34,396 nucleotides of DNA, from contig JAJYIF010000034.1 in the NCBI GenBank assembly GCA_021790195.1, positions 1-34,396 of the forward strand. The letters are read 5' to 3'. The position numbers and the translations under genes are program-made. This document shows positions 2,826 through 19,651 of this stretch, piece by piece. Every line of letters starts with the position of its first letter. Positions within the stretch are counted from its first letter, which is position 1. A model generated the notes under the pieces. That model searched no databases. It had not been told where the DNA came from and saw nothing but the letters and a program-made list of their open reading frames with translations. Source of the DNA: Nitrospirota bacterium (GTDB taxonomy: Bacteria; Nitrospirota; Thermodesulfovibrionia; Thermodesulfovibrionales; UBA9159).

Positions 2826-2915
2826 TGCTTATTCCGGTGAAACCTGCCGCTAAAACCGCCGCAAAACTGCCACCTATTCCGGTAAATCTGCCATTCGTTC
2901 CGTTTCATTTCTGCC
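2826..2915. repeat. Left end of the IS21-like element, multiple repeats
   Basis: Units of the form TTCCGGT..A..CTGCC lie at 2831-2848, 2876-2892 and 2898-2915, with a degenerate one ending at 2871. CTGCC boxes therefore recur every 21-23 bp (two helical turns), as expected for arrayed IstA binding sites. The outermost unit overlaps the terminal inverted repeat. Confidence 0.82.
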
Positions 2916-2930
2916 ATGCATTCTGATGAA

Positions 2931-2947
2931 ATGTTGCCCGGCAACAT
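2931..2947. repeat. Perfect palindrome inside the left end
   Basis: ATGTTGCC-C-GGCAACAT, 8-bp arms around one base, 16 bp inside the last end repeat. It could be an operator or a hairpin limiting read-out into cas3. No regulator can be assigned. Confidence 0.5.
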
Positions 2948-3038
2948 GAAGGTATGAGGCTATCGAAGGTCTGAATACAGGATTGTAGCGAAGGAGATAA
3001 GTAAAAGATTCATTAGACAGGGCCATGATCAGCCTTGA

Positions 3039-3480
3039 TTAAAGACCCTGATCTGACATGAGGCGCTTTATTTCCGCTACGGAGATATTTTCCTTATATG
3101 CCTTTGCGTAAATAGTCAGTAGATAGATGGTCGGCTCTTTTTCTGGATATATAGCCTTGCATTGAAAATGCGACATCACACAACCAATAGAATGGCTCTG
3201 CGTCTATGTTTCAAAACTATCGCATGTAGCGTTATTTATGCAAGCCTATATAGTAGTAAATTATCCGATAGCCTTTGCTTTTTCCTTTTTTTGTATCTGA
3301 ACTGGCAAACCGCATTTTAAAGATCTTCCCTCCCAATCCCTCAATGGGATCTCCGCAAGAGGGATTCTCGGCGAGAAGTTTGTTTAAGTCTTCGAGGTCA
3401 GAGACAATATGGCGATATTTTTTCTTGAGGTATTTTACTTCCCTCTGAAACTGAGGGGTCGGGATTATTCTATAATCCAC
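3039..3480 (-). pseudogene. RelE/YafQ-like toxin gene disrupted by a small insertion
   Basis: The 5' part (GTG at 3480 to the insertion at 3246) encodes a RelE/ParE-superfamily start, with FQREVKYLKKKY and the strand GYRIIYYY. The frame then enters a 93-bp insertion and stops at 3232. The missing C-terminus lies beyond it: from 3149 down to a TAA at 3039 the minus strand reads PEKEPTIYLLTIYAKAYKE followed by NISVAEIKRLMSDQGL, the usual end of these toxins. Removing the insertion and one TATA copy gives a 114-codon toxin in frame. The gene overlaps its antitoxin by 11 nt. Family members are mRNA interferases; this copy lacks its C-terminal catalytic strand and is probably inactive. Confidence 0.85.
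3154..3246. mobile_element. MITE-like 93-bp insertion in the toxin gene
   Basis: The 93 bp begin GCCTTGCAT and end ATGCAAGCC, giving imperfect inverted repeats of about 22 bp, and are flanked by TATA at 3150-3153 and 3247-3250. It has no coding capacity. Its position between two in-frame halves of a toxin gene defines the borders. Family and the transposase that moved it are unknown. Confidence 0.75.
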
Positions 3481-3688
3481 GCAGAAACTCTTTGAGAGTC
3501 TTGGGTTTTATCTTCCCTTCTTTTATTAATTTGACCTCACCGAGGGACTGCTTGATATTTGCGTTCACATCAAAGGCGTCATAATCGCCTTCAAGGTACT
3601 TAAGATAATCTACTACTTTTCTGAGCTTTTCTTCAGGCAGGCATTCCAGCATGCCTATAGCTTTTTGCCTCAACGGTACTGTCTTCAT
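3470..3688 (-). CDS. Putative antitoxin of a RelE-type module
   Basis: A 72-residue acidic/basic helical protein (from MKTVPLRQKAIGM) directly before a RelE/YafQ-like toxin, overlapping it by 11 nt. The segment LPEEKLRKVVDYLKYLEGDY resembles the DUF2281-like domain found in several antitoxins, and the C-terminus (LKEFLRGL) is basic. The frame could begin 5 codons earlier (3703), but the ATG at 3688 is preferred; a TATAAT-like box lies about 10 nt upstream on the minus strand, so it may have its own promoter. With its toxin broken, it may remain as an orphan antitoxin and autoregulator. Confidence 0.7.
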   Translation of the reverse strand: MKTVPLRQKAIGMLECLPEEKLRKVVDYLKYLEGDYDAFDVNANIKQSLGEVKLIKEGKIKPKTLKEFLRGL

Positions 3689-3714
3689 AAAATGATTATA
3701 CAATATTTCACGAT

Positions 3715-4077
3715 CTATTTTTTCGGCCTATAATCCCTTTCGATCTGCTCGAAGATAGTTCGTAAGATTCGGTAGGCCATCCTGATATCTTCCGGACGCT
3801 TTGTTTGAAGAAGAGCAAGGAGTTTTTCGCTTTCCCTCACTGAGGGTTTCTTATGAAGGGGAAATTCAAAGTCCAAAAGCTCTCTGATTCGAACATGTAA
3901 CGCCGTACTGATTTTCTCAATGGTTCTAAGAGACGGAACAGATACCCCGCGCTCAAGTCTTGAAATGGTCTCTACCGCTGTATCAATCATTTCCGCCAGC
4001 TGAGCCTGGGTCAACTCCCTGTCCTTCCTGAGCTGTGCTATTCTACACCCTATCAGTTTCTCAATGTCACCAGACAT
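3715..4077 (-). CDS. XRE-family helix-turn-helix regulator
   Basis: The protein of about 120 residues has an N-terminal Cro/C1-type HTH (IAQLRKDRELTQAQLAEMID followed by TAVETISRLERG) and a helical C-terminus. The ATG at 4077 (MSGDIEKLI) is preferred over the in-frame one at 4089. It is encoded upstream of the antitoxin and toxin genes on the same strand and diverges from the lipoprotein gene run, so it is well placed to control both sides from the 240-bp gap, which holds an inverted repeat overlapping a promoter. A TATAGT -10-like box on the minus strand lies at about 4100. The regulatory targets are inferred. Confidence 0.85.
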   Translation of the reverse strand: MSGDIEKLIGCRIAQLRKDRELTQAQLAEMIDTAVETISRLERGVSVPSLRTIEKISTALHVRIRELLDFEFPLHKKPSVRESEKLLALLQTKRPEDIRMAYRILRTIFEQIERDYRPKK

Positions 4078-4137
4078 TCTCGACTCCATATGATCACTTA
4101 ACTATAGACAAATAAAGTCCAATGTGACAGGACGTAC

Positions 4138-4176
4138 ATATCAATTTATAACTTGACAAAATTGCTCTATTGATAT
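4138..4176. promoter_or_regulatory. Inverted repeat overlapping a forward promoter
   Basis: ATATCAAT (4138-4145) and ATTGATAT (4169-4176) are perfect 8-bp arms around 23 bp. Between them lies TTGACA (4153-4158), with TATAAA at 4174-4179 (short 15-bp spacer). The arrangement suits repression by the adjacent XRE protein. No direct evidence of binding. Confidence 0.45.
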
Positions 4177-4205
4177 AAATTTGGAATGGTCTTATTATTT
4201 GACGG

Positions 4206-4301
4206 CAACTCTTTCAAGAATTGGGAGGGAAGAGATGGGATAAATAATCTTCACGCTCGTCTTCGTCTTAAGAGAATTCATCTTGTTACAACTTTGAGTT
4301 G
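4206..4301 (+). ncRNA. Possible structured leader ahead of a terminator
   Basis: CAACTC (4206-4211) can pair with GAGTTG (4296-4301), closing a domain of about 95 nt immediately before an intrinsic terminator. GACGG at 4201 could alternatively pair with the CCGTC arm of that terminator and act as an antiterminator. The layout resembles an attenuator or riboswitch, but I recognise no known aptamer. Confidence 0.3.
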
Positions 4302-4311
4302 AGAATATAGG

Positions 4312-4336
4312 GACGGTTTGTCTACCGTCTTTTTTT
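4312..4336 (+). terminator. Rho-independent terminator in the leader of the lipoprotein gene run
   Basis: GACGGT-TTGTCT-ACCGTC followed by seven T. It points in the direction of the downstream genes and lies 42 nt before the first start codon, with no convergent gene ending before it. It therefore acts on the leader transcript (attenuation) or stops read-through from the divergent promoter region. Confidence 0.7.
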
Positions 4337-4377
4337 GTTTTAGGGATTTATGGACATTGAAGAAAGGAGATGGGGAA

Positions 4378-4626
4378 ATGGGTTCGCTTACAGTACATGT
4401 GCTTGATGAGGACCAGGAGCCGGTCAGCGGCAAAAAGGTTTTCTGCAATTTCGTTGCAAGTTATTTAGGCATATTACCCACAAACAGCACAGAGTATACC
4501 GATGAGGATGGCATTGCGGAATTTGACGATATTCCAACCGGTGAGGTGCAAATATACGTGGCTGGCGAGGAGATAGATATTTCGGTGGGGCAAAACGATC
4601 ACGAAGATGTGACATTTACAATTTAA
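4378..4626 (+). CDS. Small Ig-like/carboxypeptidase-regulatory-type domain protein
   Basis: An 82-residue protein beginning MGSLTVHVLDEDQEPVSGKK; the start is set by AAGGAG about 10 nt upstream, and the extension to 4318 would run through the terminator hairpin. The pattern V.V.DEDG.PV.G..V followed by YTDEDGIAEFDDIPTGEVQI is that of carboxypeptidase-regulatory-like β-sandwich domains. No signal peptide or membrane segment is visible. It is the first gene after the leader and precedes the lipoprotein genes by 100 bp. Function is unknown; structural or adhesive roles are usual for the fold. Confidence 0.7.
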   Translation: MGSLTVHVLDEDQEPVSGKKVFCNFVASYLGILPTNSTEYTDEDGIAEFDDIPTGEVQIYVAGEEIDISVGQNDHEDVTFTI

Positions 4627-4727
4627 GGAGAGGTGGCCGGGTTTGTTTGGACAGCTATAGGAAACCTTGTATGAAGAACGACTTTATTTTCTTATTGTGA
4701 CAAAACGTCTCTGAAGGAGGGGCAACT

Positions 4728-7199
4728 ATGTTCAAGATCAAACGGTCTCTGTCAATAATCGTGCTGTTTTTCTTTGCGGTGAGTTTGGGGAGTTGCGGCG
4801 GAGGTGGAGGAGGAAGCTCGAGTGGAGGCGGCGGAGGCAGCAGCACGGGATCCACGATTATTGTTGGTCCTGTAGCAAATCCGTCAGCTGTTTTAGCTGG
4901 TCAACAAACGACTGTTAATATATCTGCTTATTTGCCGAGTGCGTCGGGGTCAACTGTTGCGGAACTTTATCAGAATAATGGGGGCAGTTTTACAAAGATA
5001 GGCAATATGGTTGATATGGCAAGCAACAAAGTCTATTCGATTTCGGTCCCGATAAATGAGTCCATCACTAATGCGGTAACCTTAAGGATCGTAACCTCAA
5101 ACGCGACGCAAGACATTACTATTCCTGTTATCTATGTGCCTGCTTATTCTTCAAATACTGAGTTGAACCAGGCAGCTTCTGATCTTTATACAGAGGCAGT
5201 AGCTACCAAAGCTCTGTTTGCTGGTATGAATAATAATCCGTCACCTCAGGATTATAAGAATATATCAACGAATTTGTATGACATGTTCGGTAAATTTGAA
5301 GGAATAACCAAGCAGGACATTGTGGAGTTGAGCCGCAGCGAAGCAGTTGATTTTGTGCCTTTGGCTCCCGGTGACGCTTTGCGCCGAGAACGAGGCACAA
5401 TCCTCAGCTCCGCATTCCCGGTGGCACGAAGCGCCGCAGGGAATGCGATACTTAATCTTTTCAATTTCGCTAATGATACGAATTCGTGCGCCTCGTTGTT
5501 GGATTTGATTAACAATCACCCCGACGATCCGCGGCTTAGTTCGCTGGAGCAGGAGATAGCAGCAAACAGTAACGGAACAATTGAGTTTTCTGATTTTACT
5601 GATCCATACGCGAAGGACGTTGCTGCCTTATTTGCAAGGAATTATATATTGAAGTATCAAATAACGCTAACTCTCGGGTGTCAAGGTGGCACTTTGAAGG
5701 AAGCAGCTGATGTGGTTGTTAAGGCTCAGACCGCTGAATATACGGATATTGCCGGAAACAGTCTGGATAATATTGTTGGATCTTTGGCAACAGGAATAGA
5801 GCAGGACATATATAACGCAGGGAAAAGCGCAGCTACAATTATAGGATGGTTCAAAGATCTCCTTGGAAATCTACATGTGAGCGTTGTGCAAGCAGCAAAT
5901 AATGAGAGTTATCGGGCGCCAGCTGGCACTTATAATTTATATGCCTGTTTTGACGGAAGCACAGCATTGGCAGTTGATAAGAATGTATTAATTTCAGCAG
6001 GCCAAACAACCATAGTCAATTTAACACCTGGCACAGTGGTTGACGGCTATACGATCTCCGGAACAGTCACATTTAATGGTGCTGGACTTTCAAGAGTGAC
6101 GATCAATATCGCTAACGCAGAAAATACCTTGTCAACTGCGGTAACAACTGATTCCAACGGCTACTATAATTATAGCGGCGCGACAAATGATTTTTACACC
6201 ATCACTCCGTCTTTGAGCGGCTATACGTTCAGTCCCGCAAGCAGATCGGTTTCAGTTAATGGCGGCGATGTTACGGGAAAGGATTTTACGGCGATCGCAA
6301 CGACGTCAACTCCTTCTTCACCACCATCCATCACCAATGTCAGCCCCAATCCTGTCACCGGTTCCTCTTCTCAGCAGACGATAACGCTGACTGGAAATAA
6401 TTTCCAATCCGGTCTTTCAGTGACCGTGGGCTGGACGGGTGGCTCTAAGACTTTGGACAGCTCGCAAGTAACTGTTGACAATGCAAATCAGGTTCGTATC
6501 TTCATTACCACCACTACAGTGCCCGATAACTGGACTGTAACAGTTACTAATCCTGATGGACAGTCTTCCAACATAATGAATTTCTCGGTGGTCGCGCCAC
6601 CGCCTACACCCGACACAACTCCGCCGACTGTTCCAACAGGCCTTACGACAACGGCCGTCTCATCAAGCCAGATAAACCTCGCATGGAATGCATCAACTGA
6701 TAATGTCGCTGTGGCGGGATATAAGATTTTTGATTCCGTTGGGTCATATGTTAAATCCGTTTCGACGACTTCAACTTCTATTATAGGATTAACCCCAAGC
6801 ACTCAATATTGTTTTTCGGTCTCTGCGTATGATGCTGCAAATAATGACTCAGGAAAGAGTAATCAGGTATGTGCTACGACGCAAACTGCACCTGACACAA
6901 CAGCACCCTCAGTTCCGACTGGACTCACAGTCACTGCTGTTTCATCAACTCAGATAAACCTCTCCTGGAACGCATCAACTGACCCTGATGATTCAGTGGC
7001 AGGATATAGGATTTATAGAGGCGGAGCGCCACTTACAACTGTCTCGGCGACTTCGACATCGGATACCGGCCTTAGTCCGAGCACTCAATACTGTTACACG
7101 GTTTCTGCTTATGACACGGCAGGAAATGATTCGGCACAAAGCGGATCGGTCTGTGCTACAACGCAGTCTAATACCGGCTCGGGCCTAATAAGCTGGTAA
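4728..7199 (+). CDS. Large lipoprotein with IPT/TIG and fibronectin type III domains
   Basis: An 823-residue predicted lipoprotein. The signal peptide ends in the lipobox LGSC (Cys23), followed by a Gly/Ser tether to about residue 40. Residues up to about 430 are of unrecognised type. A carboxypeptidase-regulatory-like domain follows (about 440-525), then an IPT/TIG-like domain (ITNVSPNPVTG to MNFSV, about 535-625), then two tandem fibronectin type III domains (each with SSxQINLxWNASTD and SPSTQYC), ending shortly after. A strong AAGGAGG lies before the ATG. Anchored in the outer membrane, it probably serves adhesion or matrix binding; the ligand is unknown. The next gene starts 10 nt downstream. 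Confidence 0.82.
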   Translation: MFKIKRSLSIIVLFFFAVSLGSCGGGGGGSSSGGGGGSSTGSTIIVGPVANPSAVLAGQQTTVNISAYLPSASGSTVAELYQNNGGSFTKIGNMVDMASNKVYSISVPINESITNAVTLRIVTSNATQDITIPVIYVPAYSSNTELNQAASDLYTEAVATKALFAGMNNNPSPQDYKNISTNLYDMFGKFEGITKQDIVELSRSEAVDFVPLAPGDALRRERGTILSSAFPVARSAAGNAILNLFNFANDTNSCASLLDLINNHPDDPRLSSLEQEIAANSNGTIEFSDFTDPYAKDVAALFARNYILKYQITLTLGCQGGTLKEAADVVVKAQTAEYTDIAGNSLDNIVGSLATGIEQDIYNAGKSAATIIGWFKDLLGNLHVSVVQAANNESYRAPAGTYNLYACFDGSTALAVDKNVLISAGQTTIVNLTPGTVVDGYTISGTVTFNGAGLSRVTINIANAENTLSTAVTTDSNGYYNYSGATNDFYTITPSLSGYTFSPASRSVSVNGGDVTGKDFTAIATTSTPSSPPSITNVSPNPVTGSSSQQTITLTGNNFQSGLSVTVGWTGGSKTLDSSQVTVDNANQVRIFITTTTVPDNWTVTVTNPDGQSSNIMNFSVVAPPPTPDTTPPTVPTGLTTTAVSSSQINLAWNASTDNVAVAGYKIFDSVGSYVKSVSTTSTSIIGLTPSTQYCFSVSAYDAANNDSGKSNQVCATTQTAPDTTAPSVPTGLTVTAVSSTQINLSWNASTDPDDSVAGYRIYRGGAPLTTVSATSTSDTGLSPSTQYCYTVSAYDTAGNDSAQSGSVCATTQSNTGSGLISW

Positions 7200-7209
7200 A
7201 GGAGAAAAA

Positions 7210-9222
7210 ATGAAAAATCATATTGCAGATAAAATAGACGGGATTATTGTAATAGTTCTTATGCTTCTGCTTGTAAGCTGCGGGTCACACACAGCGTCAG
7301 TCGTGAAATCGACAGGTTCGATAAAAGCGACTCTGGTATGGGTGGATTCAAACGGAAAGGTAATGCAATCAGTTGGGCAAAAACACGCGTCCACGGCCCC
7401 GCCAAGCGTGGCGACTGTAAGAATTATCGTGACGGCTTCTGATATGAACGCTATTCAACAGAACTTCCCGGCTTCAGCCGGACAGGGCCAGATTGACGGC
7501 ATACCGGCAGGCGCTAACCGCACTTTTACCGCAGAGGGGTTAGATTCTAACGGGACGGTGATATATCAGGGCTCAATAAGCGGCGTTACGATCCAGGCCG
7601 GACAGACGACTAATGTGGGAACGGTGGTTTTAACGGCCCTGATTACAACCCCTGCCACTTGGTCAAAGACGTATGGGGGACCGAATATCGACAGTCCGAC
7701 TGCTATTTTTCAAACTTCAGACGGAGGATATGTTGTAATAGGATATACGCGCTCCTTTAGTATCGGCAATACAGGATGGGGAGATATTTGGATTTTCAAG
7801 TTAGATGCAAGCGGCGTTGTACAATGGCAGAAAGTATATGGGGGTCCGGGCGACGATGAAGCCTATTCTGCTCAAACAACTTCAGATGGTGGGTATGTTT
7901 TAGCAGGTAGCTTTTCTTCTGACTCGGCATGGATATTGAAATTAGATCAGTCTGAAAACATTCAATGGCAAGAAACATTGGGGCTCGATACAGAATATGG
8001 TAACTCTTTTTCAGCAGTGACACAAACCTCTGATGGTGGATATATTGCAGCGGAAACCAAAAATTATCAAGGCCAGAGATTGATCTTCAAATTTGATTCG
8101 ACTGGTAACATAATCTGGCAAAAATCATATAGTCCTATATATGATGGAGTTATAAAGATATTCGAGTCTTCGGATGGCGGATACCTGATGTTCGGGAGTA
8201 GTTCATCCATTAGAATTGACGTTAATGGAAATATGTTGTGGTCGAATATATACAGTTTTGATTCTATGGAAAGCTTTCGAGCTATACAGCGAACCTCGGA
8301 TGGTGGCTATATTGCTACCGGAGCTTCCGATTGTTCAGGTTGCGGCGCAAGCACCCCCTGGCTGGCAAAACTCGATTCGAGCGGTAACATTATGTGGCGC
8401 GTCGGCAGCAACCTATCTGGCTTGTGGTCGACCGTGACACAAGCAGTTGACGGGGGCTATATAGTGGGGGGATATCAAGGAGATCATATAGGTGGCGGTC
8501 ACGCGGTCGCCTGGATTTTAAAATTTGACATAAATGGAACTATCGTTTGGCAAAGAACCTACGGAACTCTGAACCTAAGTGATAGTGCGTATAATTCTTA
8601 CATTAATCAAATCCAGCAAACATCAGACAACGGTTATATTGCTGCCGGTACGAGCAAGATTAATGGTGTAGACCCATCTGGCAATGGTGCAATATGGATT
8701 CTGAAGCTAGATTCCAGTGGGAATATGTCTGGATGCTCTTCAGGGTTAGTACAAAATTCTAATGCGACTATTTCGGCAATCAGTATTCCAACCACAACGA
8801 ATAGAAGCATCACAGCAGCCAACTTGAGTATTGTGCCGACGGTGCCTACTGTAACTATTACGGATACCAATGTCGCCCCTGGCAATGTTTGTTCTGGCGT
8901 GGCAAACCAAAACCCCGTTATTTCCTCGTTGACCGCTTCACCGTCAAATCCAACCATCGGGCAGTCAGTTACTTTAATATGCAATGCATCAGACCCTGAC
9001 AGTGATTCTCTTGAGCCTTCGTGGACTGCCAGTGGCGGCACTATTACGGGCGGTAGCAGCGATACTAAGGGAACTGTTTCCACCGCAACATGGCAGGCAT
9101 CAAGCGGAGGTACTTATACGATAACTTGCAGTGTTACAGACCACAGAGGCGGAAGCGATTCTAAGACGGTGAATATTTCAGTTGCCACTGTAATTCAGAT
9201 GAAGGAAGGTGAAGGCAAATGA
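7210..9222 (+). CDS. Lipoprotein with repeated TSDGGY β-propeller-like units and a PKD-like domain
   Basis: A 670-residue predicted lipoprotein with lipobox LVSC (Cys24). After an N-terminal β domain, residues of about 150-500 hold some seven repeats of the form W.K.YGG...D....Q.TSDGGYI..G, as in β-propeller surface proteins. A C-terminal Ig/PKD-like domain follows (NPVISSLTASPSNPTIGQSV to about 660). GGAGAAA precedes the ATG. The gene sits 10 nt after the previous lipoprotein gene and overlaps the next by 4 nt, so the three are translationally linked. Likely cell-surface; the partner is unknown. Confidence 0.82.
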   Translation: MKNHIADKIDGIIVIVLMLLLVSCGSHTASVVKSTGSIKATLVWVDSNGKVMQSVGQKHASTAPPSVATVRIIVTASDMNAIQQNFPASAGQGQIDGIPAGANRTFTAEGLDSNGTVIYQGSISGVTIQAGQTTNVGTVVLTALITTPATWSKTYGGPNIDSPTAIFQTSDGGYVVIGYTRSFSIGNTGWGDIWIFKLDASGVVQWQKVYGGPGDDEAYSAQTTSDGGYVLAGSFSSDSAWILKLDQSENIQWQETLGLDTEYGNSFSAVTQTSDGGYIAAETKNYQGQRLIFKFDSTGNIIWQKSYSPIYDGVIKIFESSDGGYLMFGSSSSIRIDVNGNMLWSNIYSFDSMESFRAIQRTSDGGYIATGASDCSGCGASTPWLAKLDSSGNIMWRVGSNLSGLWSTVTQAVDGGYIVGGYQGDHIGGGHAVAWILKFDINGTIVWQRTYGTLNLSDSAYNSYINQIQQTSDNGYIAAGTSKINGVDPSGNGAIWILKLDSSGNMSGCSSGLVQNSNATISAISIPTTTNRSITAANLSIVPTVPTVTITDTNVAPGNVCSGVANQNPVISSLTASPSNPTIGQSVTLICNASDPDSDSLEPSWTASGGTITGGSSDTKGTVSTATWQASSGGTYTITCSVTDHRGGSDSKTVNISVATVIQMKEGEGK

Positions 9223-10403
9223 AGAAATCGCTTTTGACATCAGCAAAACGTATAGTTGCGGGATCAATTATAGTGGGGTTGACACTATGGGTGATCGGGA
9301 ACTCTGTTGCCGCATCAGAGGTACAGACGAAAAAAACGCTTTCTAATGAGGACATAGTGTCACTTGTCAAGGCAGGATTAAGTGATCCCGCCATTATCTC
9401 TCTAATCGAGAGGTCGAACGCGCAATTTGACCTCGGTCCGGACGCTCTTGTAATACTGAAAAAATCTGGCGTCAGCAACAGCGTAATAGAGGCAATGTTG
9501 GGGAATCATCCGGTTGCGCCGAAAACAGGAGAGGCATTATTGATTCCATCGGCGTATGGATATTATGTGATCGAAGATGGCAAATTACTAAGAATTGATC
9601 CCGTGCCGGTTACAACGATAATGGGGTTGCAAGCCGGCGGCCCTCAAACTGGGAATCCCGGCATTGCCGTGGATGGCTTTAGAGATGACCCGTCAATAAA
9701 GCTGACTTCCCAAACGCCAACATTCTTTATTTATCAGCAGGACATAAATGCGGCTGACTTTCACTTATATGATCTCACTTACGTTGAGACCATGCAGGCT
9801 TATCAGTTCAATATGAACAAAACGAATCCGGCCTTTTTCAGGAATGTTTATGGGAGAAATTACTACGACGTTCTCCAGATCGATCTTTGGCGTCCCCATA
9901 ATAATATATCAGTCCGTATAGGGCCGGTCGATGGAAAACCGGGGATGTACAAGTTTATTCCTGAACAATCTCTCACACCGGGGAAATACGCGCTCTTTTC
10001 GGGAGATTCCGTTCATCCGGATAATATAATATTTGCAACAAGCCCACGCAGGACATCCACAGCATTTTACTTTGAAATTCAATCCGCTCCTCCTGAAAGA
10101 ACTAGTGGATTTTCTTCCCCCGAAACAAAGGTATCGGCTGGGAATGACGCTAATGAGATATGTCCGATAAAGACATTGTGTCAAATTGCCGGCGGGGTCA
10201 CTGATATCGATACATCTTCAAAGACCATTACTGTCAAAGGCAACAATATAGAAGTCTCAATGAGCTATGACGATAAGACAAAGTTTCATGGCACCAATAA
10301 TTTTGAAGACATTAAGGTCGGCAATAATGTAGTGGCCACATATACTAGAAAAATGGTGAGAGGGATAGTGGAGAGGGTTGCAATGCAGATTGACCTGAAA
10401 TAA
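9219..10403 (+). CDS. Exported protein of unknown function
   Basis: A 394-residue protein with an N-terminal signal or anchor segment (residues about 10-32, ending VAASE). Residues about 40-100 carry LSNEDIVSLVKAGLSDPAII and a second half ending ALVILKKSGVSNSVIEAMLG, a small helical module seen at the N-terminus of several exported proteins of unknown role. The middle is β-rich; the C-terminal 70 residues (GVTDIDTSSKTITVKGNN) look like an OB-type or DUF5666-like β domain. The ATG overlaps the TGA of the preceding lipoprotein gene (ATGA), showing translational coupling. Catalytic residues were not recognised. Confidence 0.75.
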   Translation: MKKSLLTSAKRIVAGSIIVGLTLWVIGNSVAASEVQTKKTLSNEDIVSLVKAGLSDPAIISLIERSNAQFDLGPDALVILKKSGVSNSVIEAMLGNHPVAPKTGEALLIPSAYGYYVIEDGKLLRIDPVPVTTIMGLQAGGPQTGNPGIAVDGFRDDPSIKLTSQTPTFFIYQQDINAADFHLYDLTYVETMQAYQFNMNKTNPAFFRNVYGRNYYDVLQIDLWRPHNNISVRIGPVDGKPGMYKFIPEQSLTPGKYALFSGDSVHPDNIIFATSPRRTSTAFYFEIQSAPPERTSGFSSPETKVSAGNDANEICPIKTLCQIAGGVTDIDTSSKTITVKGNNIEVSMSYDDKTKFHGTNNFEDIKVGNNVVATYTRKMVRGIVERVAMQIDLK

Positions 10404-10439
10404 AGAGAAGAGAGGCATTTAGGGGTTCTAAAATGCATT

Positions 10440-11405
10440 TTGAAATCGGCGGCTTCGACCTTCTGGTCAGTGTTATCGTTTTTGCTTCTTGTAATAGGTC
10501 TGTGGGTCATAAACAAGAAGCTGCCATCTGGAAGCAAAAGATTAACAGTCGATATTGGCTTATTGTTGGTCGTTGGGACAATTGCCGCTGCTTTAGTGGT
10601 CGTTATAATCCAGTCTAAGGCAGTGCGGGACAATCCTTTATTAACTGGGGTTGCTGCCTTATCGCTCATCACAGCCGTCGCGAGTTTTACGGATTCATTT
10701 GTCACGATCAAGTTTCGTAAGGACCTTGAACTTATCGCAGCGAGACTCCGCGCCCAGGTTGCGGGACTCGGTAATCTCATGTTCTATTCGACTAAAGATG
10801 AAGCTTTTAAGAATCTTTCGGCAATGACTTTACAGGCTAAAGAGAAGATTATGGCGACCCGATTTTCTCCTGCTGATATCAGTACAGAATCGGAATATTG
10901 GTTTGCAATAAAGCAACGCGCTATGGATCAATCCGTTCTTAGCGTGAGAATTCATTCTCTTGCGCACAGATCGTCGAGTTGCATTGATGGTGTGTGCAAG
11001 GTAATACGCGAATTCAGAGGCGCGAAGCAATTCAGGCTTGGCATAGCTTTCTTCAACAATGCTTTCGAGATGATTATTGCGGACGATAGGGAATGCGTGG
11101 TCTGTTTTCATGATTTAGAAATGACAATACGCAATGGATTTCGCGTCGATACCAATCTTCCCAGTAGCGCTGGCGTCGTCACAAATTTTGGCGATACTTA
11201 CCGTCGCATGTTGGAAAACTGCTATCTTCTTATTGACTTCGAGCGTTTTGTAAACTCCGATGAAGATGTCAGGAACTTGGAGGCGTTTCTGAGGGCACGT
11301 CACAAAGAGTATTGCGAAGGACGTCTACCGAAGGCTGTTCATCTCGGCGAGATGGAAGAGTACCTGAAAGACAATGTTTTTGTAAATGAATTGCATGGCC
11401 GCTGA
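10440..11405 (+). CDS. Membrane protein with a large cytoplasmic domain
   Basis: The 321-residue frame has three hydrophobic segments in its first 90 residues (VLSFLLLVIGLWVI, IGLLLVVGTIAAALVVVII and LLTGVAALSLITAVASF) and then a soluble domain of about 230 residues. The part around RIHSLAHRSSSCIDGVCKVI and FNNAFEMIIADDRECVVC is faintly like the phospholipase D-superfamily fold but lacks an HKD motif. The start is uncertain: the TTG at 10440 has no good Shine-Dalgarno, whereas the ATG at 10433, with AGGGG 8 nt upstream, is in another frame. It follows the exported-protein gene by 36 bp and completes the passenger gene run. Confidence 0.65.
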   Translation: MKSAASTFWSVLSFLLLVIGLWVINKKLPSGSKRLTVDIGLLLVVGTIAAALVVVIIQSKAVRDNPLLTGVAALSLITAVASFTDSFVTIKFRKDLELIAARLRAQVAGLGNLMFYSTKDEAFKNLSAMTLQAKEKIMATRFSPADISTESEYWFAIKQRAMDQSVLSVRIHSLAHRSSSCIDGVCKVIREFRGAKQFRLGIAFFNNAFEMIIADDRECVVCFHDLEMTIRNGFRVDTNLPSSAGVVTNFGDTYRRMLENCYLLIDFERFVNSDEDVRNLEAFLRARHKEYCEGRLPKAVHLGEMEEYLKDNVFVNELHGR

Positions 11406-11606
11406 GAAGTATTATCCTATTGCTACGCTAATGGCGCGACTGGGGAAGATAATCTCGATAAGCATTCTGGAATTCCTGGATTCACTAAAGCGTGGAACCC
11501 CGCAAGAAACCTCTTCATCTTCAATGACGACTCTGCCGAGTTTATCGAAGGGAAGATCTCTATAATCGACCTAATAATAGAATGGTACGAGGTGACCGCG
11601 AATTAA
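11406..11606 (+). pseudogene. Coding-like remnant in frame after the membrane protein stop
   Basis: Directly after the TGA at 11403-11405 the same frame stays open for 66 codons and ends at a TAA, reading for example GFTKAWNPARNLFIFNDDSA and then EGKISIIDLIIEWYEV. The composition looks like protein, but there is no start codon or ribosome site. It may be the lost C-terminus of the membrane protein or the tail of another gene. Confidence 0.3.
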
Positions 11607-11642
11607 AATAGTCATGCCTGGATTTTAAGAAGAAAGATTTTC

Positions 11643-11672
11643 TTGACATACTGCGAAATCGCAGTATATAAT
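11643..11672 (+). promoter_or_regulatory. Promoter with palindromic operator in the spacer (MerR-like gene)
   Basis: TTGACA (11643-11648) and TATAAT (11667-11672) are both consensus, separated by 18 bp. The spacer is almost filled by a perfect 16-bp palindrome ACTGCGAAATCGCAGT (11650-11665). An operator between -35 and -10 is typical of MerR-family regulation. The predicted transcription start falls on or next to the GTG start at 11679. Confidence 0.8.
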
Positions 11673-11678
11673 TCTTTC

Positions 11679-12341
11679 GTGGACAAGTTAAGGCTGCCAG
11701 AGGTCTTGAAAAAACTGAAAAAGGAGGGTATCAACATTTCCCCGAGAGCTTTTGAGTATTATCAGCGTCTGGGTTTGCTACCTAAGCCCGAGAAGCGTGT
11801 TGGGGAAAAGGGAAGAGGGGTATACGGGTATTATGGTCCGGAAATCGTCAACTTGGTGAAGAGGATTTACGAGTTAAAGAAAGAGGGGCTGACATTGCCA
11901 GGGATCATCAGAAGATTCCGCTTGGATTTCGAAGAGAGGGTCCGTTCTCTTCAAAATCGATGGAAAGCGGATGAAGACTATTCAGATATTGATACTCTTA
12001 TTCTGACAGATTTAGACTCTTGGGCTGATGATAATGCTATAGAATCCCGTATTCTTAAGTGGCTCATTGACACGAAATGGCATATCTTAAGCTCTACTGC
12101 TTACACGATTGGAGAAATTGATCTTCTAAAAGATCAAATGACGGAGGCAGAGCAGGGGACTGTTACAAAACTTACAAAGATGCTTCAGGAGAAATCATAT
12201 GAACGCAGGATTGCTTTACATCCGTACTATATTCGGCTCGCAGAACTACACGGTGAATATAATGGGAAGACTAAGGAAGAATGGGAGCAGCAACAGAAGA
12301 AGGAGATGCAAATGCTAAGGAATAGGGTACAGCCGTCGTGA
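11679..12341 (+). CDS. MerR-like transcriptional regulator of the transposon
   Basis: A protein of about 220 residues whose N-terminus (KKEGINISPRAFEYYQRLGL followed by LPKPEK) matches the MerR winged HTH, in which the residues before YY.RLGLL contact DNA. The C-terminal 120 residues are helical and of unknown type, without the cysteines of metal sensors. The frame extends to 11643, but that would start inside the promoter; the GTG at 11679, 7 nt after the -10, is the likely start and implies a leaderless mRNA. The gene lies 83 nt before istA, and a near-identical palindrome precedes istA. It therefore probably regulates both itself and the transposase genes. Confidence 0.72.
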   Translation: MDKLRLPEVLKKLKKEGINISPRAFEYYQRLGLLPKPEKRVGEKGRGVYGYYGPEIVNLVKRIYELKKEGLTLPGIIRRFRLDFEERVRSLQNRWKADEDYSDIDTLILTDLDSWADDNAIESRILKWLIDTKWHILSSTAYTIGEIDLLKDQMTEAEQGTVTKLTKMLQEKSYERRIALHPYYIRLAELHGEYNGKTKEEWEQQQKKEMQMLRNRVQPS

Positions 12342-12366
12342 GCGAATGCCTTTTTTGGACTTTATT

Positions 12367-12382
12367 AGTGCGATTTCGCAGT
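12367..12382 (+). promoter_or_regulatory. Second palindromic operator, upstream of istA
   Basis: AGTGCGATTTCGCAGT is, on the other strand, ACTGCGAAATCGCACT, matching 15 of 16 bases of the palindrome in the MerR-like gene promoter. It lies 43 bp before the istA start. A weak TTGGAC (12355-12360) and TCAAAT (12382-12387) flank it with a 21-bp spacer, which would need MerR-type distortion to work well. Confidence 0.7.
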
Positions 12383-12424
12383 CAAATGAGGGACTGAAAT
12401 AATATGCCAAAGGAGAGATTAACT

Positions 12425-13948
12425 ATGAGGAAAATTAAGGAAATCTTAAGGCTTTTCTTTGACCTTCAACTTTCTAAGAGGAAGATTGCCAATTCGACAG
12501 GCGTCGCGCGCCCGACTGTTGCCGACTACATTTCAAGAGCGAAGGCGGCGGGTCTGACCTGGCCCTTACCTGCTGACATGGACGAGGCTACGCTGGAAAC
12601 GCTCCTATTTCCATCAGCAAATAAAAACACCCAAGGGCCAAAGTGTATGCCGGATTTTGAAAAGGTACATCTGGAACTGAAGGAGAAGGGCGTAACGCTC
12701 CAAATACTGTGGGAAGAATACAAAGGCGTACATCAACAGGACGGCTATGAATACAGCCAGTTTTGTGAGCTCTACAGGCAATGGAAGCAAACCCTAAGAG
12801 TCAGTCTAAGGCAGGAGTATAAGTTCGGCGACAAGATGTTTGTGGATTACGCCGGCAAGACAGTACCGATCATGGACCCTGAGACCGGCCAGATTCGGCA
12901 GGCCGAGGTTTTTGTCGGAGTCCTGGGGGCCTCAAATTATACATATGCAGAGGCCTTCGAATCTCAGAGCCTACCAAATTGGATAAGCGCTCACGTCAAC
13001 GCCTTTGGCTATTTTGGGGGAACCCCTCGTATAATTACGCCGGATAATTTGAAGTCCGGCGTCGTAAAACCCTGCCGCTACGAGCCGGATATAAACCCGA
13101 CCTACCTGGATATGGCGAATCATTATGGTTGCGTCATCATCCCGGCACGAGTCCGCAAACCGAAGGATAAACCCAAAGCTGAGGCGGCAGTTAGGGTCGT
13201 CACCATGTGGATAATCGCGGCTCTGCGGAAGCACACATTCTTTAGCCTTGCGGAGTTGAACGGAGAGATAAGAAGGCTCTTGGAGATTCTAAATGCTAAG
13301 GATATGAAAAAGCTAAAGACTACTCGGAAGGAACTGTTTCTCAATGAGAAGCAGTTCCTTAGACCCTTACCAGCAGAGCGTTATGAATTTGCCGAATGGA
13401 TAAAGACGGTTGTCAACTTCGACTACCACGTGGAAGTAGCTGATCATTATTACAGCGTTCCATATACCTATATTAAGAAGGAAATCGAAGTGCGCCTTAC
13501 TCTCAGAACCGTGGAGTTCATTTACAAGGGAAGACGCATCGCATCGCACGAGCGGAGCAACGAAAAAGGGAAGATGACTACTCTGCCCGAACATAGGCCT
13601 ATGTCACACCAAATGGTTCTCGGATGGACCCCTTCAAGCGTCCTCGATCATGCCAGAAACAATATCGGCTCATCTGCAGTCAGTGTCTTCGAGAAACTTC
13701 TGGGCGAAGTGTCTCACCAAGAGAAAGGCACAAAATCATGTATAGGCATTATCAGTCTTGTAAACAAGTTTTCGGCAGCACGCGTGGAGGCCGCCTGCGA
13801 GAGATCCCTTGTTATTAACTCGGTGTCTTACAAGAGCATCCGCTCAATACTTCAGACCGGGCGCGATAAAATCGCTCTTTCCGTGCAACAGGGCGAGGTG
13901 GCAGCCGTCGCCCACGAGAATATACGCGGCAGCGGTTATTTTAAATAA
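12425..13948 (+). CDS. istA: IS21-family transposase IstA
   Basis: A DDE transposase that binds the multi-repeat ends and performs strand transfer. The ATG at 12425 is preceded by AAGGAG at a good distance, so the in-frame ATG at 12404 is rejected. The 507-residue protein has an N-terminal HTH (SKRKIANSTGVARPTVADYI), the RNase H-like core with Asp in KMFVDYAGK (about 141), Asp in ITPDNLK (about 207) and Glu in KPKAEAAV (about 253), and the C-terminal β-barrel region (DYHVEVADHYYSVPYTYIKK). The length is normal and the frame intact, so the element may still be mobile. istB follows after 51 nt. Confidence 0.95.
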   Translation: MRKIKEILRLFFDLQLSKRKIANSTGVARPTVADYISRAKAAGLTWPLPADMDEATLETLLFPSANKNTQGPKCMPDFEKVHLELKEKGVTLQILWEEYKGVHQQDGYEYSQFCELYRQWKQTLRVSLRQEYKFGDKMFVDYAGKTVPIMDPETGQIRQAEVFVGVLGASNYTYAEAFESQSLPNWISAHVNAFGYFGGTPRIITPDNLKSGVVKPCRYEPDINPTYLDMANHYGCVIIPARVRKPKDKPKAEAAVRVVTMWIIAALRKHTFFSLAELNGEIRRLLEILNAKDMKKLKTTRKELFLNEKQFLRPLPAERYEFAEWIKTVVNFDYHVEVADHYYSVPYTYIKKEIEVRLTLRTVEFIYKGRRIASHERSNEKGKMTTLPEHRPMSHQMVLGWTPSSVLDHARNNIGSSAVSVFEKLLGEVSHQEKGTKSCIGIISLVNKFSAARVEAACERSLVINSVSYKSIRSILQTGRDKIALSVQQGEVAAVAHENIRGSGYFK

Positions 13949-13999
13949 CCATTCTTACCCCTGCCTTTTGGACAGGAACTATCAAGAAGGAGGATCAAT

Positions 14000-14737
14000 A
14001 TGATCAACGAAACAGTCGACAAGCTCTATGGTATGAGACTAAAAACTATGGCAAACGTATTTAGGGAACAGATGAATTATCCCAATATAAACGACCTCAG
14101 TTTTGAGGAGCGCTTTGCTATGATTGTGGATCGTGAATGGGCAGCCAGGGAAACCAAGAAGTTGAACCGAAGACTCAAAGGGGCTCGACTTAAACAGAAG
14201 GCAACGATCGAAGAAATCGATTACAGGTATCCGAGGGAACTGGAAAAATCTATTGTTTTGACTCTCGCCACTTGCAACTGGATCAGGTCTCACCAGAATG
14301 TGATCATTACGGGCGGCACAGGCATCGGCAAGACGTATATCGGCGACGCATTTGCCGACAAGGCCTGTAGAGAAGGCTTTACTGCGATCCGTTACAGACA
14401 AGGCGAATTATTTGAGGAACTGTCTACCGCGAGAGGCGATGGCAGTTACAGCAAGCTCAGAGGCAAGCTGGCAAAAACAGATCTCTTAATTGTCGACGAT
14501 TTTGTCATCACGCCTATGAAAGAGGAGGAGAGGAGGGATTTCCTCGATATTATGGAAGACAGGCATGGAATACGTTCAACGCTCTTTACCAGTCAGTACC
14601 CTATTGCGACGTGGCATAGCAGAATTGGTGACCCAACCATAGCAGATGCTATTCTGGATCGGATTGTACATAATGCCCATAAGATTCCCCTCAAGGGTGA
14701 GTCTATGAGGAAAATGCTCTTTAATCTGAACGATTAG
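14000..14737 (+). CDS. istB: IS21-family AAA+ transposition regulator IstB
   Basis: A DnaC-like AAA+ ATPase that prepares target DNA and activates IstA. The 245-residue protein has Walker A GGTGIGKT (105-112), Walker B LLIVDDF (Asp166, Asp167) and the N-terminal helical IstB domain beginning MINETVDKLYGMRLKTMANV. AAGGAGG lies before the ATG. It ends 50 bp before the repeats of the right end. All motifs are intact. With IstA it forms a complete IS21 transposition module. Confidence 0.95.
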   Translation: MINETVDKLYGMRLKTMANVFREQMNYPNINDLSFEERFAMIVDREWAARETKKLNRRLKGARLKQKATIEEIDYRYPRELEKSIVLTLATCNWIRSHQNVIITGGTGIGKTYIGDAFADKACREGFTAIRYRQGELFEELSTARGDGSYSKLRGKLAKTDLLIVDDFVITPMKEEERRDFLDIMEDRHGIRSTLFTSQYPIATWHSRIGDPTIADAILDRIVHNAHKIPLKGESMRKMLFNLND

Positions 14738-14787
14738 GAGTTGTAGAATACACCTGAGCCGTTGTTAAGTATTTTTGGTTTCAGAGT

Positions 14788-14857
14788 GGCAGGTTTAAAT
14801 CGGAACAGGTGGCAGGAATCAATCGGAATGGGTGGCAGGAATGGTCCGGAAAATGCA
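14788..14857. repeat. Right end of the IS21-like element, multiple repeats
   Basis: Three units starting GGCAGG and reading to TCCGGA or ATCGGAA lie at 14788-14805, 14811-14829 and 14834-14850, exactly 23 bp apart, in the opposite orientation to the left-end units. The outermost ends in CCGGAAAATGCA at the element border. Confidence 0.85.
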
Positions 14858-14862
14858 GCACA
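14858..14862. repeat. Target-site duplication, right copy (gcaca)
   Basis: Matches 2821-2825. It is the first host sequence after the element terminus TGCA and belongs to the cas3 codons for V422-P423 (minus strand). Confidence 0.9.
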
Positions 14863-16124
14863 TCCACAGTCGGGCTTGTGATCTTTTCATTCTGCCAGAA
14901 CTGCGGCAATGATCCCGACGCAAACACAAAATGACAACGCCAATTTGAAGACAAATCCTTCAACCAGCGCCATGCTTGTGGCCACAGCCATGTGGGTATT
15001 GCCGCATGTGCTTCATCTAAGAATATCGCCGAACCGGGTAATTCATGCAGCTTACGCAATTGAGCCGGATGGTTCGCGCCTAATGTTTCAAAAAATTGAA
15101 CTGCCGTCGTCACGATAATAGGCGCTGTCCACAAAGAGGCGTGCTGTCGCATGTCATAGTTTGAAAAATCAGCTTGATGGTGATGCTCAGCAACAACCTC
15201 TTCGGGATTCTCATCCGGAAGAATCAGTGCCTTGCGATAGACATCTACTGATTGCTTGATGATATTCGTGTAAGGCAACACCACAAAGATATGTCTCAGC
15301 TCTTTATTAATCGTTGCTTGTAGAAGATGAGCCACTACTGCTGTAGTCTTGCCGGTGCCCACTGGACTGTCACATGCAAACAAGCTCGGATTGGTATCCG
15401 CATCACGGCAGTCTTCGTAAGTGTATTTCCTTTGTGTCTTACGGTCTTTAGAGGCATCGGATTTGTCTTGCAAGCCTTGGACATATTCACTTAATTTATC
15501 GAGGCGCTCTTTCCATCGCCGCTTGACCGCTTTCTTCCCTGATTCACCACCATAATGTACGGCAGTGTCGCCATAATCAGCATCCACAAGACACGAAAAG
15601 GTCAGCCTCCTTGTTAGACCACTCCATCCGGATTTAACAATCTTGTCTGACGAACCCTCAACACTTCCGCACCATTTTGCATGCTCCGAAAAGTAATCAA
15701 AGAGCTTTTGATCGACCTCTCCGCAAATTTTGTCGTCCCGCAAAAAAGAAGCTCCTCGCCCCGATTCATAAGGCACAGAGCACAAGCCTATGTGATGACC
15801 GTATACAAAGACAGCAGCCTCATGTTCTTTGCCTTTGGATAAATAGGCCGCGCCTGCATCGACATGATTCAATGGCAAGTGCTTCTTACCGCCTGTTTTT
15901 AGAACTGTCTGGTTCGCCTCATCGAGCTTGCCTAAGTCATGAAATAAACCTGCCCGTTTTGTTACGTCATGCAAAACTTGGGCATCTCCTGAGAAATACT
16001 GAGTCATGACTGAGACATTTTCGCCGGCTCGCTCCACAACTCCCGCTATATGCTTCACATATGTCTGCGGAGGAATGCCATGCTCCGGCTTTGCGCTATG
16101 CGCCAACGGCTCTTCACTGTTCAT
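14858..16124 (-). pseudogene. cas3: cas3, 5' part (HD nuclease and first helicase lobe)
   Basis: The first 422 codons of Cas3, the nuclease-helicase that degrades DNA unwound by Cascade. It carries the HD nuclease motif GLFHDLGK (His62, Asp63) with downstream NHVDAGA and YGHHIGL, Walker A SPVGTGKT (253-260), the DEAH box FLDEAHA (370-373) and motif III FASGSLP. After V422 the frame runs into the transposon and ends at 14781 with 25 foreign residues. The product would lack the second RecA lobe and so all translocation activity, although the HD domain could in principle fold. The start overlaps the end of cas7 by 11 nt, showing coupling. Confidence 0.93.
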
Positions 16125-16986
16125 TCATTAAATCTCTAAAGTCATTCAGCTTATCTCTCAATTCACTTGGTAATTCTTTTGGTACATCATAGTCATCATG
16201 CCATGAATTTGAGGGCTTTCCTGAATCCTGATCTTTCTTTCTTGTAGGTGTTAATGCGTCAATTAATGCGAAATCCGAGCACGATCCTAAAGCAGACTTA
16301 TGCTCCATATACCAAGCGTGGCGTACTTCAACGCATGAGCGAACATAAGATGCAGTATGCGGATAAGCAAAGGGAATAATCTTCAATAGGACTTTTAAAT
16401 CATCTTGAGTGCATTGGGTCTTGCTTGCAGCAGTTGGGTTAACAAAGAACGGCATACAATAGACTCCGTGTTGAACGACGCGGAAAGCCAACGGCGCCAT
16501 TCCCACCTTCTTGTCGCCCTCTACAGGCGGATTTGTGGTTGTCATACGCCTCACTTCAACGGGGGACACTGACACCCCAAGCCCGAACTGGACTACGCCT
16601 GTTTTAACCGGTATATTTCTCCCCTTTTCGAGTTCTGTATTGCCAAAGATACGCCCGTCCCAAAACTTTTCGGTAAATTGATCTTCGTTTAAATTGCGGA
16701 TATCGGCAAGCTTTACTTCACGGCTTTCTGAAATCATAAACTTATTCGGATCAAGAGTCGGCGAAAACTGTTTTGAGATAGATTCCCAAACCGTCCCTGA
16801 TTTTCTTTCCACAAGATCACGCACTTTCCGTTTAAACGAAACCGGTGATATCTCACCGCGACCATCCTGTCTTTGACGTGGGTCGCTTTCTCTATCGGGA
16901 TCGCCATTTGGATTAGAATTACGTACTTCGACAATTAATAACCCCGTAGCCCTTTTGTCAATCAAATTTTCTTTCTTTTCCAACAT
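16114..16986 (-). CDS. cas7: Cas7 (Csd2) backbone subunit of the type I-C Cascade
   Basis: A 290-residue RAMP protein of the Csd2/Cas7 family, which multimerises along the crRNA spacer. The N-terminal strand LIVEVRNSNPNGDPDRE and the following segment (DPRQRQDGRG, then SFKRKVRDLV) are diagnostic; the middle carries IFGNTE and TGVVQFGLGVSVSPVE. Length is normal for I-C. GGAGGTTTTTT sits before the ATG, 21 bp after cas8c. No frame defects. It overlaps the downstream cas3 by 11 nt. Confidence 0.93.
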   Translation of the reverse strand: MLEKKENLIDKRATGLLIVEVRNSNPNGDPDRESDPRQRQDGRGEISPVSFKRKVRDLVERKSGTVWESISKQFSPTLDPNKFMISESREVKLADIRNLNEDQFTEKFWDGRIFGNTELEKGRNIPVKTGVVQFGLGVSVSPVEVRRMTTTNPPVEGDKKVGMAPLAFRVVQHGVYCMPFFVNPTAASKTQCTQDDLKVLLKIIPFAYPHTASYVRSCVEVRHAWYMEHKSALGSCSDFALIDALTPTRKKDQDSGKPSNSWHDDYDVPKELPSELRDKLNDFRDLMNEQ

Positions 16987-17007
16987 AAAAAACCTCCTTC
17001 AATTTTG

Positions 17008-19050
17008 TTATTCTTCATTTTTTATGTGAGCCAAGTAACCCAGCAGGATTTGAGCTTTAATTGCATCATCAGCTTGTGCTGGAATGGTGACATTTTCCAT
17101 GGCTGCTGAAACCTGTCCCATTTGTCCTAAAACCCATTTCGCTAATCTGACTTGCTTTGTAACGCTCTCATCATCTCCATCATCTTGAACGCTGGTAGCC
17201 CATGCATGATAAATAGGCAATCTCTCACTCAGCAGAGATAGTCCTTTTGTGGGATTATCCAGTGCTGTACGCATAATGGCATTGCCGATCAATTGTGTTG
17301 GCACATCTTTTTTTCGAACTTTCCAGCAATACGCATAATGCAATTTATCAGCAAGTGCAAGCATCCTGCCGACATTAAATGCCGCATTTTTCATATAGTC
17401 CTCCTTTTTTATGCCGAGTTTATATAACGCTATCGCTAAAATTGATATGCCGTTAAGTATTGTTTTACGGGCATCTGGCGAATATTCCTTTGTGGCATCC
17501 GCATGATCGGCGCTTCCATATCCTACAAACAGCTCTCCAAGACGCTGTAAGGCAAGACTCAGGAAATTATTTGCCGTCTGTTCTGCTATAAAGGCATCGC
17601 CAAGATATAAATCGTATACGTGGCGCAAATAAAGTCCTGAAACCTCTATTTTATCAAGCCCTTGTCTGATCCATTGGTTTTGGTAGCATTTCATAACATC
17701 AACAGGAGAAGGGGCTGAAGGTTCGGACTTAATTGCCTTTTCACCTTTTTTCCCCGGAAGCCACAGGGCAAATATAGGCAGATTCTTAGCCGCTTCTCTC
17801 CATTCTTCTACGCTGTTAATAATATTTTTGATACTATAAGCGTTGCTGAGCACTACTTGAGCACGCCCTTCGTCAACCTTACTGATAACTATCACATTAA
17901 CTTGAGAATTGTCATTTAATCCTGGTATCCCCCGCAAAGCGTCACAAGCAATTCTTGCTTTGCTTTCGTAAGCAGCTTCCGCTGTGATATTTTCCCCAAC
18001 ATCCGGTGCTGCAAAAATACTTGCAAGCGCAATTTCATTTTCAGGTTTTTCCTCTAAATAAGAAATAAGTAAATCCTGTTTACGCTTCTTACCTTTTACA
18101 ACAGGAACTCCTTGCCATGTCTTCCCTTTTCGCCCATCAGCAACGCACCACTGAAGGGCACCATCCATAGCCTCAACCTCGCTCGAACTCACTGGAAATA
18201 TTGAAGAAGATATCTTCTTATATCGGTAATGACATGGTGCGTCATCATTCATCGAAAACAAATATGACTGCCCAGCCGGCCCAAGTTTTCGTTTCGGGAA
18301 TGGGTCAACTTTTAATCCAGAGCTTCCATATGCAGAAATTGCTTTGCCTTGATTATCCCCGCTTGTTCTTGGCAAATATTTACTTACTAATATGCCCATT
18401 TCGGGACTTGCAACCTTGCATTGGTATTTAGCCCGATCGCTAACGTCGAAGAATAACGGTGCATCGCATACTATTTCCTGAGACCGTTCTTTTAAATCGC
18501 CGATAAGAATTGTTTTTGCCAAATCGACCGTCTGTTCCTGTATATTCTGCAAAATTAATTCCGCCAACTTCATAAGAAACTCACTTGAAGAAGCTGGGTT
18601 ATGTGGCATTCTGATAGTAAGATCAATAAGAGCTTGCATTTTGTTATCTTTCCCATTAATTTCAGCAATTCGGTCTCGTGTCCATGAGGCAAGACTAATA
18701 TCCTGCTCATTAAATTCATATTGACGTTCTTCTATCAACGATTTTCTTTTTTCCTCATATTTCTTCTTGCCTTTAAAGATGCCGAATGCTGGGCTATTAG
18801 CTGTCACCTTCCATATCGGTTTCTTTAATTTTACAAATGGAAAGCTATTGTGATTTCCCTTACACAACTTCCATAATTTTTTTATTTGATCCGCAGTTAC
18901 GTATTCTATGGTCTCTGGCAATCCAGCGTTGTTCACACATACAACAAAGCCTTCTTTTTTGCCGGGCGATTCTACGTATTGATGTGGCTTGCCAACCTGA
19001 ATTCCGCATTTCTGCAGGTTACGAGATAGTTGATAGAGTTCATTTAGCAT
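17008..19050 (-). CDS. cas8c: Cas8c (Csd1-like) large subunit of the type I-C Cascade
   Basis: A 680-residue protein in the position of the Csd1/Cas8c large subunit, which recognises the PAM and recruits Cas3. Supporting features are the order cas5-cas8-cas7, a size somewhat above the 560-620 usual for Csd1, and segments such as KPIWKVTANSPAFGIFKGKK, LGQSYLFSMNDDAPCHYRYK-like text near the middle and GNHNSFPFVKL. The C-terminal part is helical, as expected for the small-subunit-like region, which in I-C can also be produced from an internal start. The start ATG overlaps the end of cas5 by 11 nt. The frame is intact. The call rests partly on context. Confidence 0.85.
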   Translation of the reverse strand: MLNELYQLSRNLQKCGIQVGKPHQYVESPGKKEGFVVCVNNAGLPETIEYVTADQIKKLWKLCKGNHNSFPFVKLKKPIWKVTANSPAFGIFKGKKKYEEKRKSLIEERQYEFNEQDISLASWTRDRIAEINGKDNKMQALIDLTIRMPHNPASSSEFLMKLAELILQNIQEQTVDLAKTILIGDLKERSQEIVCDAPLFFDVSDRAKYQCKVASPEMGILVSKYLPRTSGDNQGKAISAYGSSGLKVDPFPKRKLGPAGQSYLFSMNDDAPCHYRYKKISSSIFPVSSSEVEAMDGALQWCVADGRKGKTWQGVPVVKGKKRKQDLLISYLEEKPENEIALASIFAAPDVGENITAEAAYESKARIACDALRGIPGLNDNSQVNVIVISKVDEGRAQVVLSNAYSIKNIINSVEEWREAAKNLPIFALWLPGKKGEKAIKSEPSAPSPVDVMKCYQNQWIRQGLDKIEVSGLYLRHVYDLYLGDAFIAEQTANNFLSLALQRLGELFVGYGSADHADATKEYSPDARKTILNGISILAIALYKLGIKKEDYMKNAAFNVGRMLALADKLHYAYCWKVRKKDVPTQLIGNAIMRTALDNPTKGLSLLSERLPIYHAWATSVQDDGDDESVTKQVRLAKWVLGQMGQVSAAMENVTIPAQADDAIKAQILLGYLAHIKNEE

Positions 19051-19651
19051 AGATCAACTCTCCTTCCCTGATCTCTGCGTCAACGGTAAAACTTGGCGCA
19101 ACTTGACCATCGGATATCTTATCGAAAACACTATGCAGCATAGAGGGAATAAGAATATTGATGCCCTCTTGCTTTTTTGTACCTTCCCGAAACATTCCTG
19201 CGTAAGACGGCACAAACTCTTTCCAACCGAGACAAGGCGTGTAATAAAATCTTCCTTTTTTTAAACGTCTATTAAAAACATCCTGTAATGCATGCAAGTG
19301 GTTATTACCTTCCGGTGCTTGCATAATCTCCTCGACGACCCCATGAATTCTATAACACACATCTATCAATATCGTGGCTGGAATCTGATAAGAACTACCT
19401 GTGGCCATTTGATTACCTTTCCGCAACGGCCCGCCATAGTTGGTCGTATATTTGTGATATTTGATGGGCGCACATATTTCGACCATAGTGGGGCGTATAC
19501 ATGCACTTGTCCACCGTGCGATTGCCTCAAACATGCCTTTGGCAGCAGAAAAAGTTGGCGCAGGGTATGACACCTGCGCAGCTCCTGAATCCGGCCGCGT
19601 AAACATTGCCGCAGGGCCAGCGATTTCAAATTTGACTTCGTAAGGTTCCAT
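19040..19651 (-). CDS. cas5c: Cas5 (Cas5c/Cas5d), crRNA-processing subunit
   Basis: A 203-residue RAMP protein of the I-C Cas5 type, which cuts pre-crRNA (replacing Cas6) and caps the 5' handle. It begins YEVKFEIAGPAAMFTRPDSG, followed by SYPAPTFSAAKGMFEAIAR, the classic Cas5d N-terminal region, and has CLGWKEFVPSY in the C-terminal half. GGGAGGA lies 6 nt before the ATG. It is slightly shorter than most family members. It is the first intact cas gene of the operon; a broken cas3-like HD frame precedes it. Confidence 0.92.
   Translation of the reverse strand: MEPYEVKFEIAGPAAMFTRPDSGAAQVSYPAPTFSAAKGMFEAIARWTSACIRPTMVEICAPIKYHKYTTNYGGPLRKGNQMATGSSYQIPATILIDVCYRIHGVVEEIMQAPEGNNHLHALQDVFNRRLKKGRFYYTPCLGWKEFVPSYAGMFREGTKKQEGINILIPSMLHSVFDKISDGQVAPSFTVDAEIREGELIYAK

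Follow-up and report, generated by a model that had tools for sequence, protein, structure and literature searches.

Insertion sequences of the IS21 family are usually described as consisting of two genes whose expression is governed by promoter boxes that lie in the ends of the element. Regulators of the MerR family recognize an operator dyad inside the spacer between the −35 and −10 boxes, which is usually 19–20 bp long, and in mer transposons such as Tn501, MerR controls the resistance operon carried as cargo. For IS21, the normal promoter boxes lie inside the terminal repeats, autoregulation by IstA has been proposed, and a published assay gave 5-bp target duplications (PMC10122671). A MerR-type regulator that acts on transposition genes is known from V-K CAST transposons, where CvkR (Alr3614), encoded by a leaderless mRNA, represses cas12k and tnsB (PMC9938897). 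CvkR acts through a 15–16-nt palindrome shared by the two promoters (motif AnnACATnATGTnnT); it is apparently not autoregulatory, and no binding was seen at its own promoter (PMC9938897).

The window (the whole analyzed stretch of 34,396 nucleotides) contains an IS21-type element of 12,032 bp (positions 2826–14857, forward strand) inserted in a type I-C cas3 gene. The element has TG...CA tips and is bracketed by a 5-bp target-site duplication, GCACA (2821–2825 and 14858–14862). When the flanks are rejoined with a single GCACA, one continuous open cas3 frame results. Both ends carry IstA-type repeats, organized on the left as four units centred on CTGCC(A/G) at intervals of about 23 bp (2836–2924, forward strand) and on the right as three copies with 23-bp spacing (14779–14857, reverse strand). 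The IstA DDE transposase gene (12425–13948, forward strand; NF033546 transpos_IS21, E = 2.3e-80) adjoins the gene for the IstB AAA+ helper ATPase (14000–14737, forward strand; PF01695, E = 4.6e-65; NF038214, E = 2.7e-68), so that genes, multiple terminal repeats, tips, and target duplication are all those of the IS21 family. For istA, the ATG at 12425, which is preceded by AGGAGA, is a better start than the alternative ATG at 12404.

In contrast to IS21 elements of about 2 kb, the window element measures 12 kb and holds passenger genes between its left end and istA. The stretch from the left end to the regulator gene (2826–11640) holds about 8.7 kb of passenger DNA, an unusual length for an IS21-type element. 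This region comprises a ParE-like ORF (3232–3480), a Cro/C1-type helix-turn-helix gene (3715–4089), and genes for fn3- and PKD-domain proteins (4728–9222). A separate small IS21 nested around the regulator, istA, and istB was rejected because strong end repeats occur only at the two outer positions; the GCACA duplication, which brackets the 12-kb unit, contradicts it as well.

A further difference from the IS21 family is a MerR-type gene with an internal promoter in place of promoter boxes in the ends (PMC10122671). This promoter (11643–11672, forward strand) matches the consensus at 12 of 12 box positions, with a perfect TTGACA (11643–11648) and a perfect TATAAT (11667–11672) separated by 18 nt. 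The most likely start of the regulator ORF (11679–12341, forward strand) is the GTG at 11679, as judged from the sequence, whereas the TTG at 11643 falls within the −35 box and is the less likely start. Because this GTG lies six bases after the −10 box, at the predicted +1, the mRNA of the regulator is probably leaderless. Both the regulator and istA are present as single copies in this genome.

The original prediction had described the encoded protein as MerR-like, and the family searches agree. PF13411 (MerR_1) covers residues 20–79 above its curated cutoff (E = 9.9e-8), and a profile built from two regulator sequences matches the solved regulatory protein 4ua1 in the PDB (E = 1.1e-5). The best Foldseek matches of the structural model, SoxR, BmrR, and NmlR, are weak (E about 0.1). 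By these profile matches, the N terminus is a MerR-type winged helix-turn-helix. The C-terminal half gave no significant match in Pfam and further family models, to ligand-domain families or otherwise. It does contain conserved blocks, for example YTIGEIDLL and YYIRLAE. The AF2 model, based on two sequences, stays below a pLDDT of 50 for the larger part of residues 95–163, and this region is therefore modelled too poorly for a ligand domain to be named.

Two near-identical palindromes accompany the regulator gene. Palindrome 1 (ACTGCGAAATCGCAGT, 11650–11665) is operator-like, consists of two 7-bp arms around a non-palindromic AA, and fills the spacer between the TTGACA and TATAAT boxes, just as had been proposed. 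Palindrome 2 (AGTGCGATTTCGCAGT, 12367–12382), likewise operator-like, differs by one mismatch from the reverse complement of ACTGCGAAATCGCAGT. It ends 42 bp before the istA ATG at 12425 (21 bp before the alternative ATG at 12404), so that the distance of 43 bp given for this 15/16 copy was right to within one base. No further copy of ACTGCGAAATCGCAGT was found in the window with up to three mismatches allowed, and none of 100 dinucleotide shuffles contained as many matches as the window itself. In the whole 3.3-Mb genome, the pattern STGCGAWWTCGCAS occurs at two sites, which are palindromes 1 and 2, compared with none in the control.

The sole independent homologous element that we found is on a 4.4-kb contig (4378 bp) of low coverage from the Nitrospirae MAG WY3.bin57 (JAKAIZ010000233.1, here L015). 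A second hit (L003, G374:C168) is apparently the same contig, and the two were counted as one element. A full-length regulator homologue is found in one of 396 genomes of the phylum (G374), with 52–55% identity. L015 has the gene order regulator, istA, istB, right-end repeats, in which the first three genes follow each other as in the window element. Its regulator starts with a GTG at the same distance from the −10 box. One in-frame TAG separates the two halves of its istA (L015:2473–2499), reflecting either decay or a sequencing error on the low-coverage contig. No left-end repeats were found in the 1 kb upstream of the L015 regulator, which suggests passenger DNA in this element as well.

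Conservation of the paired sites in homologous elements had been suggested as a check on the original prediction, with absence of the istA-proximal copy counting against it, and L015 indeed keeps both palindromes in the same places. The first, ACTGCGATATCGCAGT, lies inside an 18-bp spacer between TTGACA and TATATT, and the second, AGTGCGATATCGCAGT, lies 43 bp upstream of istA. In both elements, the left arm of the istA-proximal copy shows an identical departure, AGT for ACT. Between the window and L015, palindrome 2 agrees at 15 of 16 positions, whereas its intergenic flanks agree at 9 of 25 and 10 of 21 positions (about 40%); against a background of 41%, this conservation has a binomial P of 1.5e-5. 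The promoter block is identical at 33 of 39 positions, compared with 59% for the regulator gene.

Further searches for the regulator and its motif returned little else. Single-protein scans of viral contigs, plasmids, and genome contigs yielded no more homologues, two-row alignment scans of genome contigs and viral contigs recovered L015 only, and searches at order and class level added only weak hits to the MerR domain, with no copy of the motif at their loci. The promoter-linked palindrome pattern had no match in viral contigs. Six IstA relatives from the same order (L026–L031, 40–59% identity) have istA near end repeats or the contig start; none of these six loci shows a MerR-type gene immediately upstream of istA or contains the palindrome motif. 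In two plasmid relatives of the ISSpu5 and ISPpu7 groups, the end repeats immediately precede istA with no annotated regulator in between. Motif and regulator are therefore either both present or both absent, although only two elements carry them.

The paired sites of the original prediction are thus confirmed, and its interpretation is supported in part. Taken together, we consider it probable (about 0.68) that the element encodes a self-limiting MerR-type repressor that would combine negative autoregulation with repression of istA and istB. That one element-borne protein serves both self-regulation and control of istAB is the best reading because the relative keeps both sites and the regulator-less IS21 relatives lack the motif. 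The strong consensus promoter would give rise to a leaderless regulator mRNA with read-through into istA and istB, until a regulator dimer bound to the spacer palindrome shuts it. At palindrome 2, bound regulator would either shut a weak local promoter or stop the elongation of transcripts begun upstream. A possible weak istA promoter (TTCGCA-17-AATAAT, 12375–12403, forward strand) matches the consensus at 9 of 12 positions, and its −35 box overlaps palindrome 2. This assignment is uncertain; the promoter scan recovered no equivalent in L015, so that palindrome 2 may work instead by blocking elongation. An element entering a cell free of repressor would thus produce a burst of IstA and IstB, and the accumulating regulator would then hold transposition low. 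The internal controlled promoter would replace the usual IS21 end promoter, which is unlikely to serve istA across about 8.7 kb of passenger DNA; this intervening DNA would itself be the reason why an internal promoter is needed. With the palindrome pair kept in a distant relative, the element probably restrains its own transposition.

The spacer position of palindrome 1, together with the MerR-type winged helix-turn-helix and the conserved C-terminal blocks, would also fit a classical MerR activator, in which the spacer-bound regulator and a ligand twist the DNA and switch on the regulator's own operon, making transposition signal-dependent. The dyad indeed lies in the spacer as in the MerR family, but the spacer measures 18 bp in both elements instead of the usual 19–20 bp. 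With this spacer and near-consensus boxes, RNA polymerase should need no help and a spacer-bound dimer should repress, which points to a promoter that is on unless repressed, unlike the classical MerR activation promoter. Moreover, the window regulator lacks any cysteine with which to sense metals or redox state, its C-terminal half matches no ligand-domain family, and palindrome 2 lies outside any promoter spacer of that kind. We therefore regard classical activation as unlikely. It also appears doubtful that this cargo-carrying IS21 lineage controls transposition through a signal-responsive MerR-type switch dedicated to it, the C-terminal domain of which senses a host or stress cue and opens both operators together.

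The palindromes might instead be operators of another protein, such as a host regulator or IstA, with the MerR-type protein acting elsewhere. For IstA there is a precedent in the proposed autoregulation of IS21, where it would cover promoter elements in the ends (PMC10122671). However, the motif is unlike the IstA end repeats, is absent from the remaining host genome and from the regulator-less IstA relatives, and accompanies the regulator in both elements, which makes this explanation improbable. Still less probable is a main role of palindrome 1 as a terminator-like hairpin that shields the operon from outside transcription, with palindrome 2 arising by chance or as an RNA-level feature: a scan does mark 11648–11667 as a terminator-like stretch that has a short T-rich tail, but it flags nothing of the kind in L015, palindrome 2 has no T tail, and the two copies have one conserved sequence in common beyond their symmetry. 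A functionless chance recurrence could appeal to the frequency of such palindromes. A 16-bp palindrome alone is not unusual, as 15 with at least 14/16 symmetry are present in the window compared with 13.7 expected. What is not due to chance is the combination of a repeated sequence, the position of both copies at gene starts (one inside a promoter), their uniqueness in the genome, and the retention of both in a diverged element, and a chance origin is hardly credible.

A self-limiting repressor of this kind would have its closest known counterpart in CvkR. Both are MerR-type winged helix-turn-helix proteins encoded by a transposon, the leaderless mRNA of CvkR has a predicted counterpart here, and both are associated with a 15–16-nt palindrome that recurs almost unchanged at two promoters, including that of a transposase gene. 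However, CvkR belongs to a Tn7-like element, is encoded beside cas12k, uses the motif AnnACATnATGTnnT, and apparently does not bind the promoter of its own gene, whereas the present element is of the IS21 type, has the motif ASTGCGAWWTCGCAGT, and places one site inside the regulator's own promoter. Because element family, motif, and the site in its own promoter differ, the present regulator is not a member of the CvkR type; it would work alike, and the comparison extends to the MerR fold only. With MerR of Tn501-type transposons, it shares the location of a MerR-type gene on a transposon and the operator dyad in a promoter spacer. It differs in that the sites precede the regulator and transposase genes and in that it lacks a set of metal-binding cysteines.

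In the titles and abstracts of open-access papers, we found no earlier account of a MerR-type regulator on an IS21 element. If the proposed circuit holds, an IS21-type element with passenger DNA and its own paired-operator repressor would show a simple insertion sequence becoming a regulated transposon, parallel to and apparently independent of the control of V-K CAST transposons by CvkR. The prediction of two binding sites is directly testable.

The 12-kb element splits the type I-C cas3-like gene into two parts (1862–2825 and 14863–16124, reverse strand), and CRISPR interference is therefore probably broken, whereas the remaining cas genes look intact. These are cas5-, cas8c-, and cas7-like ORFs at 16114–19651 and a cas4-like ORF at 625–1266, all named by eye. 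An ORF of 190 amino acids (1274–1846, reverse strand), flanked by the cas4-like ORF and the cas3 remnant, by its appearance encodes a four-helix-bundle protein of the 23S intervening sequence type. A small ORF at 157–585 resembles, by eye, a TnpA of the IS200/IS605 type.
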